Shown: one piece after another, positions 31,359 through 33,034 of the stretch
Layout of the letters: each line of letters opens with the position of its first letter
Numbering within the stretch: the stretch's first letter is position 1
Source of the DNA: Anaerolineaceae bacterium
GTDB lineage: Bacteria > Chloroflexota > Anaerolineae > Anaerolineales > Anaerolineaceae
Length of the DNA: 64,000 nt
Reading direction: 5' to 3'
Assembly (NCBI GenBank): GCA_016841445.1
Contig: JAENZD010000003.1
Location: 95,212-159,211, forward strand
Notes under the pieces: generated by a model
Databases searched by the model: none
Seen by the model: the letters and a program-made list of their open reading frames with translations, nothing else
What the model was told of the DNA's origin: nothing
Translations under genes and position numbers: made by a program

Positions 31359-32360
31359 TTAAAGATCAATGAAATCCGGTTCGATCAACCTGGGATCTGC
31401 TGGTGGATGAATTTCATACCCGTGTTTCAACCATAAATCTTCTGCAAGATTGTTGGGCTTGCATCTGATGCCCATGACCTGGAAATATTCACACAGGCGC
31501 AGCAGGTCTCGGCGGAAAATAGCAAAAGCACTCCTGTTTTCGTAAGGGTTGAGCGATTGCGGGAAATCAATCAAGAAGATCTCTCCATCAAAGTACAGGA
31601 TATTGTAGGCAGAAAGATCGCCATGAACACGCTGATTTTTCAGCATGATTTCAATATTATGGATCACTTTATCGAACACCCATTTTGCTTCGGACAGTGA
31701 AAGGTTGACAGTGTTAAGGGTGGGTGCGGCCACATCATCCCAGCCGATATATTCCATCAGGATAGCGTTGTTACCGCTGGCTAAGGGCATTGGGATATCT
31801 GCACCTGCCTGGTGCAGGATCTGCATGGTTTGAAATTCATGCTCAATCCAGGATGTGTGAAGGATCTCCATGCCAAATTTTGTCCGTTTTTCGATGGCAT
31901 GCAAAGCTCTGTTGTCATGGATCTCATGCCCTTCATCATCTAAATGGAGGCGTCCCTCACGGTACAGGGAATCGTTTCGAAGCTGCCGGAATTTTCTTGG
32001 GCGGTAGACTTTCGCAGCCAAATAACTGTTTTGCGAAGTGTTATTTGCCAGGCATTGGTAAACCGAAGCTTCTTTACCGCCGCCTTTGATCAATCTGAGG
32101 ATATCTTCGAACCACTGCTGTTGGTAGAAATCCTTCAAGGATGCGGTTAGCCACTCTCTTTCATGCTTGGATGCGGAATAGCTGATGTTGAACTCATTTT
32201 CCTGCTCTGAAAGATCAGATAGTTGGAAAGAAGTAGCCTTCTTCCGGTTTTTAATTGAAGAGGTCTGAAGCAGATTCTCTCGTGGTACATTCCGAATCGG
32301 CGGAAGGTCAACGAAATCTTCTAGCTGTTCGGTTAAATCAAAATTATGATTTGTATTCAT
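31359..32360 (-). CDS. RIO-type atypical protein kinase
   Basis: This is a 333-residue protein with the RIO1-like kinase fold from about residue 80. The ATP loop is GGGKEASVY (93-101), the lysine is K117 in AAKVYR, the catalytic loop is HGDLSAYN (246-253, D248 and N253) and the metal-binding Asp is in DFPQ (265-268) in place of the usual DFG. Residues 120-170 carry the RIO1-type flexible insert. The N-terminal 75 residues are polar and probably disordered. In archaea and eukaryotes RIO1 acts in small-subunit ribosome maturation; the bacterial role is not settled. It is read leftward and lies downstream of the micro-gene at 32495. Confidence 0.88.
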   Translation of the reverse strand: MNTNHNFDLTEQLEDFVDLPPIRNVPRENLLQTSSIKNRKKATSFQLSDLSEQENEFNISYSASKHEREWLTASLKDFYQQQWFEDILRLIKGGGKEASVYQCLANNTSQNSYLAAKVYRPRKFRQLRNDSLYREGRLHLDDEGHEIHDNRALHAIEKRTKFGMEILHTSWIEHEFQTMQILHQAGADIPMPLASGNNAILMEYIGWDDVAAPTLNTVNLSLSEAKWVFDKVIHNIEIMLKNQRVHGDLSAYNILYFDGEIFLIDFPQSLNPYENRSAFAIFRRDLLRLCEYFQVMGIRCKPNNLAEDLWLKHGYEIHPPADPRLIEPDFIDL

Positions 32361-32441
32361 TCGTAAAACATTTCCTTAATCATCGATTTAAATGCGTTGA
32401 AGGCTCAACAAAAATATTAATTTTGGCTTTTTATGGGAAAT

Positions 32442-32467
32442 AAAAAACCACAGGCGCTGACCTGTGG
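32442..32467 (-). terminator. Leftward terminator of the micro-gene
   Basis: CCACAGG (32448-32454) and CCTGTGG (32461-32467) form a 7-bp perfect stem. Read on the minus strand it is followed by TTTTTT (the A-run at 32442-32447). It lies 28 bp after the stop of the 22-codon gene and separates it from the RIO kinase gene. Confidence 0.75.
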
Positions 32468-32494
32468 CAAGTTTGTTAACTAAGTTAAGTTAAT

Positions 32495-32563
32495 TCAACC
32501 AGGTAACCCGACAGGAGGCGCGTTCAACAATTTATTTCGAACAATTCTTAAATTATTTGACAT
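32495..32563 (-). CDS. 22-residue micro-protein gene, unknown
   Basis: The frame starts with ATG at 32563 and ends with TGA at 32495. The peptide begins MSNNLRIVRN and ends PPVGLPG; it is basic and has no hydrophobic membrane helix. AAAGGAGG lies 7 nt before the ATG, one of the best ribosome sites in the window. A promoter (TTGACA, 17 bp, TAAACT) lies upstream and a terminator downstream, giving a transcript of about 150 nt. The conserved-looking signals argue for a real gene. It may be a stand-alone peptide, a signal or RiPP-like precursor, or a leader; no modifying enzyme is adjacent. No homology can be claimed from sequence alone. Confidence 0.5.
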   Translation of the reverse strand: MSNNLRIVRNKLLNAPPVGLPG

Positions 32564-32599
32564 ACAGTTGCCTCCTTTCTTGTTTTTGATCTGAATTTT

Positions 32600-32628
32600 A
32601 GTTTAATCGATCTAATAAGATCTGTCAA
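32600..32628 (-). promoter_or_regulatory. Promoter of the micro-gene
   Basis: On the minus strand TTGACA (32623-32628) and TAAACT (32600-32605) are separated by exactly 17 bp. The -35 box is perfect and the -10 box has 4 of 6 consensus bases. It begins just after the stop codon of the MazG-like gene, so the micro-gene can be expressed alone. The start would be near 32593. Confidence 0.6.
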
Positions 32629-32629
32629 A

Positions 32630-33034
32630 TCAAGCAGAAGGCGTGTTGTCAAGAAGCACAGCATGATCCCCAAGTTTCTCTTTCATTTTCTTGAGCAGCG
32701 CGTCATCAGGCGTTGATCCTGTCAGGCTGTACATGAACACCGCTAACATCATTTCACAATCCGCAACTTCTTTACTGATGTCCTCTTTTCGGACCCTGTC
32801 ATTATTGCGGATCCAACCCTCCACCCGCGAGACGATCTCATCAGCATGGAATCCCTCATCGCTAAACCGTTGGAGCATCTCAATCTCTTCCTCAGAAAGT
32901 TGATCTTGATGATGGGCTAGGAAGGCTTCGGCAAGTTCCCCAACTTCTGAGAGATAGAACCATAATGCATCCTTGGCGGAAGGCCACTGTAAGCCGCGTG
33001 CCTCATAATATGACTGTATCGTCCGGATATCCAT
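32630..33034 (-). CDS. MazG-like NTP pyrophosphohydrolase
   Basis: This is a 134-residue all-helical protein of the MazG/dUTPase-like group. The metal-binding helices show LSEVGELAEAF (residues 29-39) and ISKEVADCEMML (about 85-96), the EExxE/ExxD type pattern that binds Mg2+ around an NTP. Members hydrolyse non-canonical or alarmone nucleotides to monophosphates. The substrate here is unknown. It is followed directly by the promoter of the micro-gene. Confidence 0.8.
   Translation of the reverse strand: MDIRTIQSYYEARGLQWPSAKDALWFYLSEVGELAEAFLAHHQDQLSEEEIEMLQRFSDEGFHADEIVSRVEGWIRNNDRVRKEDISKEVADCEMMLAVFMYSLTGSTPDDALLKKMKEKLGDHAVLLDNTPSA

Follow-up and report, generated by a model that had tools for sequence, protein, structure and literature searches.

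The locus studied here raises a simple question: does a reading frame of only 22 codons, surrounded by the signals of a complete gene, encode a functional peptide, or is it part of an RNA with another role? The frame lies between positions 32628 and 32442 of a 64,000-nucleotide stretch of DNA from an Anaerolineaceae bacterium, which we call the window. An earlier note, which gave no strand for the unit, named a promoter with its spacer, a Shine-Dalgarno (SD) sequence, an ATG, the 22-codon frame, a hairpin and a T run. All of these are present, and all are on the (-) strand, as are the window features given below with coordinates.

The unit in the window

The sigma70-type promoter (32600..32628) consists of the -35 element TTGACA (32628-32623), a 17-bp spacer and the -10 element TAAACT (32605-32600). 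It is followed by the SD sequence AAAGGAGG (32571..32578) and by the leader ORF, MSNNLRIVRNKLLNAPPVGLPG (32495..32563, with its ATG at 32563), whose frame stays open and whose peptide is not conserved. We distinguish four further regions. Region 1, GGAGGC (32575-32570), is the SD part that would act as the anti-antiterminator strand. Region 2 (32508..32522), composed of CGCGCCTCC (32522-32514) and TGTCGG, has the SD or the 5' arm of the terminator as its partner. Region 3 (32454..32468) comprises this 5' arm and the loop, i.e., GCCACAGG and then TCAGCGC, while region 4 (32442..32454) comprises CCTGTGG (32454-32448) and the T run of an intrinsic terminator whose hairpin spans 32468-32447. The putatively regulated gene (31359..32360) encodes a RIO-type protein kinase of 333 amino acids, which matches Pfam RIO1 (E 2.4e-33) and PDB chains of Rio1 (best E 2.6e-18). 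The gene on the other side (32630-33034) had been called MazG-like, a label that is unsupported by any Pfam or NCBIfam match at E 0.001.

By themselves, the promoter and terminator patterns in the window are close to chance. Within 2.3 kb there are 7 promoter-like sites, versus 3.6 +/- 2.0 in shuffled sequences, and the unit's own site ranks in the top two; terminator-like sites number 2, versus 2.4 +/- 1.6. In folding predictions, the transcript is more stable than all 200 of 200 shuffles (z -3.4), and its SD is paired with a GCCUCC within the ORF. No match to the leader at the gathering score was found in Rfam 15, whose only match in the window is a tRNA elsewhere and whose sub-threshold matches are at chance level; a search of plasmids for the unit also gave no match.

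We judge the unit to be real because it is conserved. It occurs whole in six of the 16 genomes of the genus (G000, G002, G003, G006, G011 and G013), always with exactly 22 codons, and in each of the six it has an APPxG stretch, a CCACAGG..CCTGTGG terminator and a RIO kinase gene directly downstream. It also matches our covariance model R1 over its complete length (32441..32580, 64.2 bits, E 3.8e-20), although the window leader is itself one of the 79 rows behind the model that scores it at 64 bits. Comparison with related genomes thus confirms that the 22-codon unit at 32628-32442 is real and conserved. The earlier note's reading of the site as a unit that is transcribed, carries a translated frame of 22 codons and ends in a terminator of its own is supported as a prediction.

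Association of the leader with RIO kinase operons

The productive handles for finding relatives were the neighboring genes rather than the unit itself. BLASTN with the whole unit against 61 relatives returned mostly noise, and a pattern search of 147 genomes of the family gave 11 matches, of which 7 are true units and the other 4 appear fortuitous. A search with the upstream gene led to 12 loci, five of which have the unit. This neighbor was considered as the unit's partner and rejected: in two loci (L027 and L029) the unit is about 300 nt away from it and still stands before the RIO kinase gene.

Protein searches found the RIO kinase in 31 of the 147 family genomes and in 113 of 400 genomes of the order, where the two sets overlap. 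Eight genomes with partial or contig-edge RIO matches were left out, either wholly or for one fragment (G012, G167:C116, G211:C176, G257, G341, G366, G425 and G426). We inspected the DNA upstream of 115 RIO kinase genes from the order and found the leader at the head of the operon in 114; the remaining one, L120, is cut by a contig end, so that the leader is present in 114 of 114 assessable operons. In 111 of these it was tabulated directly. The other three (L102, L152 and L153) lack a leader nearby, but with more DNA it was found at the operon head, before a GNAT-like gene (L159) or before rsgA (L160 and L161). A further operon in which rsgA precedes the RIO gene (L086) likewise has the leader at its head, one small gene separates leader and kinase in L115, L116, L119 and L128, and the second RIO copies of three genomes (L156-L158) also have leaders. 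Thus, what had been described as an isolated transcript is, on this comparative evidence, the leader of the next gene.

A strong SD and a short ORF recur in every leader, together with a terminator and, where the ORF ends, a motif resembling GCGCCTCC. Among the 111 tabulated leaders, of which L065 and L148 are the least convincing, SD and ORF are always present, the exact SD AAAGGAGG occurs in 98, the ORF has 16-27 codons, and it starts with ATG in 110. In 109 leaders the distance from the end of region 2 to the stop codon is 0-22 nt; in L148 and L151, region 2 by this measure extends 13 nt past it. For the 101 RIO leaders with sufficient upstream DNA, promoter-like sites scoring at least 9 of 12 precede 95, versus 337 of 2020 shuffled sequences. 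A second terminator-like hairpin after the first was observed in L050, L071, L088, L130, L137, L145 and L156-L158.

Two helices that compete for region 2

To analyze base pairing, we used an alignment (A1) of 79 leaders. Of 109 leaders, 83 remained after removal of near-duplicates and, by hand, of L063, L065, L148 and L154, and from these L094, L137, L149 and L150 were also left out; leaders outside A1 served as held-out tests. In A1, 84.1% of cells are paired in the helix of the SD with region 2 (helix 1:2) and 93.2% in the terminator. Taken together, these two have 86 double-changed cells versus 27.5 in shuffles, and slid versions of them are only 37-48% paired; the number of pairs changed on both sides is weak as a measure (50/500). 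The helix of region 2 with the terminator's 5' arm and loop (helix 2:3) is 94.4% paired, against 17-65% in slid versions, and has 16 double-changed cells versus 6.1, a value that none of 500 shuffles equaled. Weaker measures for this helix are the pairs changed on both sides (46/500) and further pair types (49/500). At column 107, in region 2, C/U varies together with G/A in both partners, at columns 14 and 202.

It is important to consider that relatedness among the leaders inflates covariation counts, and therefore we place weight on the agreement of several tests. Moreover, region 2 was located by a consensus search, and its presence is therefore not independent evidence. A looser fold test did not discriminate leaders from shuffled sequences (111/111 versus 1927/2220 for RIO leaders, and 53/53 versus 924/1060 for leaders of other genes), and was therefore replaced by duplex energies. 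These are within the best 5% of each leader's own shuffles in 88 (helix 1:2) and 71 (helix 2:3) of 111 RIO leaders, and in 37 and 29, respectively, of 53 non-RIO leaders. In the window leader the two duplexes have nearly equal energies, -14.6 and -13.8 kcal/mol. The comparison thus establishes two competing helices, a predicted anti-antiterminator (1:2) and a predicted antiterminator (2:3), which are mutually exclusive, as both use region 2.

We modeled the effect of a ribosome by masking its footprint in the predicted folds of 109 leaders, and counted a helix when it had at least 4 pairs. Without a ribosome, the helices are about balanced, with 1:2 in 57 leaders and 2:3 in 50. Placing the ribosome on the start codon leads to a predicted helix 2:3 in 104. 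With a ribosome at the stop codon, helix 2:3 is still found in 35, and the terminator in 108. In 87 of 109 leaders folded at full length, the terminator is retained despite a ribosome at the start; read-through would therefore have to be kinetic, in that helix 2:3 must form before region 4 is synthesized.

Other genes associated with the leader

Of 34 leaders left out of A1, model R1 recovered 33, all but L063; these loci also gave 12 secondary matches, which were weaker. The model matched none of 25 control loci. At E <= 0.01 it has matches in 104 of the 147 family genomes, including genomes that have no RIO kinase, where the E-values are to be taken as rough. We collected 60 non-RIO stretches from among the better-scoring matches; this is not a complete ranking, and, e.g., G156:C375, G071:C83 and G247:C5 were skipped. 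For two of the 60, L197 and L199, the stretch was too short for a class to be assigned.

Downstream of the remaining 58 leaders, we found rsgA in 13 cases, mostly with a gene for an RNHCP protein. MFS transporters follow in 8 cases, ABC exporters in 8 and ABC-2-type systems in 4. Arrays of GNAT genes, often led by an unnamed ORF, account for 16, double-GNAT proteins for 3, and the unnamed ORF of the GNAT arrays, together with either an MFS gene or the end of a contig, for 2, while 4 have unclear genes. These classes were assigned by BLASTP to a small reference set and by reading of the sequences, with Pfam checks of representatives, and some ABC and MFS assignments are weak. The unnamed ORFs that head GNAT operons had no Pfam match in L206 (637-1146) and L213 (670-1122), and no NCBIfam match in L206 and L208 (582-1184). 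Our script did not find a leader ORF in 5 of the 58 (L214, L265, L274, L276 and L297).

In the window's own genome, the matches to R1 comprise the RIO leader (E 2.0e-18), a leader before an rsgA-RNHCP operon on contig C6 (G000:C6:415500-419400, L196; E 1.5e-14), a weaker match on C7 (E 0.0017) where the next gene looks GNAT-like by eye, and two more matches with E above 1. This genome has two rsgA genes above the Pfam cut-off; the other one (C2:77624-78154) lies closely behind another gene and has no R1 match nearby. Beyond the order, we inspected by eye the DNA upstream of 12 RIO genes from other orders and classes, and it often shows a similar layout; L251 shows none, and the candidate in L256 is doubtful. 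R1 matches 6 of the 12 with E < 0.01, at the expected place. In a scan of 400 genomes of the phylum, R1 had matches at E <= 1e-5 in 34, of which 29 are within the order, and in one of the five outside it (G552) the match is directly before the RIO gene.

Proposed mechanism and signal

Based on these observations, the unit at 32628-32442 probably acts in cis on the RIO kinase gene as a ribosome-mediated transcription attenuator, whose signal is most likely stalled translation. When no ribosome is on the leader ORF, the SD (region 1) would pair with region 2, the terminator (regions 3 and 4) would form, and transcription would stop after about 150 nt. A ribosome that reaches the stop codon would sit beside or over region 2, and the terminator would form again. 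A ribosome arrested at the start or first codons, however, would cover region 1, so that region 2 could pair with the terminator's 5' arm and the RIO kinase gene would be transcribed. The position of the ribosome would thus be decisive, and the peptide irrelevant.

The nature of the signal is suggested by the fact that the same device heads rsgA-RNHCP operons, MFS and ABC exporters, and GNAT arrays. Together, these genes look like a set for resistance and ribosome repair, and we therefore regard translation arrest, e.g., by ribosome-targeting antibiotics, as the likeliest signal. The case for antibiotics draws on the neighboring genes and on analogy. Since a ribosome at the start site would free region 2, induction by drugs that stall initiation is predicted.

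The same attenuator might instead respond to a physiological signal, such as the supply of free 30S subunits or the capacity for initiation, a shortage of amino acids, or the growth rate, in which case RIO kinase and RsgA would be controlled as ribosome-homeostasis factors. In favor of this, the putative sensing element is the SD and start codon themselves, rsgA is a small-subunit maturation gene, and RIO kinases have a role in 40S maturation in eukaryotes. However, exporters, ABC systems and GNATs make up 41 of the 58 non-RIO targets (including the two with the unnamed ORF), which suits a drug response better, and we consider a physiological signal unlikely.

An amino-acid attenuator of the trp or his kind was set aside: no run of a single residue occurs in the 111 leader peptides, and the downstream genes are not biosynthetic.

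The reading frame is kept and the peptide is not

Several observations indicate that translation of the leader ORF, rather than its product, is conserved. The ORF is open into region 2 in 109 of 111 leaders, and the other two frames are interrupted earlier in 59 and 32. The earlier note had suggested a search for synonymous substitution bias; for the ORF before region 2, pN/pS is 1.00 in 25 independent pairs (0.67 and 0.68 in frames +1 and +2), with 66, 55 and 45 differences in these pairs at the first, second and third codon position, and so the peptide is without visible constraint. Region 2 is found in all three frames, in 94, 11 and 6 of 111 leaders, and reads Ala-Pro-Pro in the window and Arg-Ala-Ser-stop in L054-L056. 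Leader peptide sequences vary widely between families. It was also argued earlier that relatives keeping promoter and terminator but losing the frame would point to an RNA; relatives do keep both signals, yet an open frame of similar length is also kept, and only the peptide is lost. These comparisons indicate that translation of the leader ORF is kept and the peptide is not.

As a separate observation, Ala, Ser and Thr are enriched at codons 2-8 of 57 non-redundant RIO leader ORFs, where they make up 0.328 of 399 residues; their share is 0.171 of 228 at leader codons 9-12, and 0.217 of 1316 when codons 2-8 of the downstream proteins are counted. Such enrichment would be compatible with stalling of the chloramphenicol type, but it is absent from the leader in the window, and we do not rely on it.

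An arrest peptide that stalls the ribosome at the Ala-Pro-Pro motif, as a sensor of EF-P or secretion, is suggested by the APP in the window peptide and by PP in 67 of 111 RIO leader ORFs. However, PP is absent in the other 44, the motif is off-frame in 17, and the neutral pN/pS offers no sign of a selected peptide. The arrest motifs RAPP, RGPP, RAPG and RAGP (of the ApdA, ApdP and SecM type) occur in 0 of 111 leader peptides, and AAPP serves as an arrest-defective control in the cited part of PMC12992588. Moreover, a stall there would cover region 2 and so favor termination. We therefore regard this explanation as very improbable.

Slightly less probable still is that the unit makes a small RNA of about 150 nt that acts in trans through an anti-SD seed (CCUCC). 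A short terminated RNA is indeed expected from the unit, and CCUCC resembles the 3' end of 16S rRNA, but the leader stands at the same operon head in 114 of 114 cases, even where a gene is inserted, and every leader's motif fits its own SD and its own terminator.

A functional micro-protein, secreted signal or peptide precursor encoded by a stand-alone gene is the poorest of these explanations, because the open frame, strong SD and ATG in 110 of 111 leaders are accompanied by a pN/pS that is higher than in the other two frames, by a conserved motif that is off-frame in 17 and by sequences that diverge between families.

The other proposal of the earlier note, that the ORF is the coding part of a regulatory RNA, agrees with the preferred reading as a ribosome-mediated attenuator; its overall interpretation is thus partly supported.

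Comparison with known attenuators

By sequence criteria, the leader belongs with the ribosome-mediated attenuators of the vmlR and hflXr kind, with translation and induced read-through being predicted. Comparisons here refer to the cited parts of each paper. The vmlR leader of Bacillus subtilis, which is induced by drugs expected to stall at initiation (PMC9226507), similarly has a leader ORF within an anti-antiterminator, then an antiterminator, an intrinsic terminator and the gene. The vmlR leader differs in having a three-codon minimal ORF, a NusG pause site and a hairpin that sequesters the SD of the gene itself. Unlike vmlR, the RIO-type leader has an ORF of 16-27 codons whose SD is region 1, and differs in genes and phylum. 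The rli80-hflXr system of Listeria (PMC6310831) is likewise a ribosome-dependent transcription attenuator of a second copy of a ribosome GTPase, comparable to the leader-controlled second rsgA, but needs an RLR motif in a 14-aa peptide, whereas the present leader has no conserved peptide motif. The toiL ORF upstream of E. coli topAI, at whose start codon tetracycline and retapamulin are thought to stall ribosomes, resembles the switch proposed here in being a multipurpose uORF through which ribosome-targeting drugs of several classes are sensed, also by stalls at the start codon (PMC12121999); it works via translation initiation and Rho, whereas the present leader would work via an intrinsic terminator. 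Finally, the uORFC-6-1 motif before hflX in Bacillales (PMC8632094) is also a uORF motif found by comparison and located before a ribosome-rescue gene, but belongs to another phylum; the terms 'Chloroflex', 'Anaerolinea', 'RIO' and 'rsgA' are absent from the main text of that paper, and the first three are absent from the main texts of two surveys of ncRNAs, this one included.

The kind of regulation is therefore already known from vmlR and hflXr. The family is not in Rfam 15, and no description of it was found in open-licence texts with searches on RIO kinase leader peptides, on RIO1, uORFs and Chloroflexota, on attenuation in Chloroflexi, or on RNHCP. The surprising element is the predicted control of a bacterial RIO kinase by an attenuator.

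Implications

We tentatively propose a broader idea, which we see as quite possible without favoring it: that Chloroflexota share a translation-stress regulon controlled by one class of SD/anti-SD attenuator, which needs only ribosome occupancy of the leader start and no peptide motif. It would deploy the RIO kinase, a spare RsgA, the RNHCP protein, exporters and acetyltransferases, and the RIO kinase would be an inducible enzyme for ribosome protection, 30S rescue or drug inactivation. That it shares its predicted switch with exporters, acetyltransferases and rsgA points to stalled or drug-hit ribosomes, and makes the role of a bacterial RIO kinase directly testable. If this regulon exists, a family best known from 40S maturation would be tied to the antibiotic response. 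The leader adds a class of regulatory RNA to a phylum in which our literature searches gave none of such kind, and model R1 finds further candidate resistance genes. More generally, a short ORF with all the signals of a gene may be a sensor of ribosome position, for which the peptide is irrelevant.
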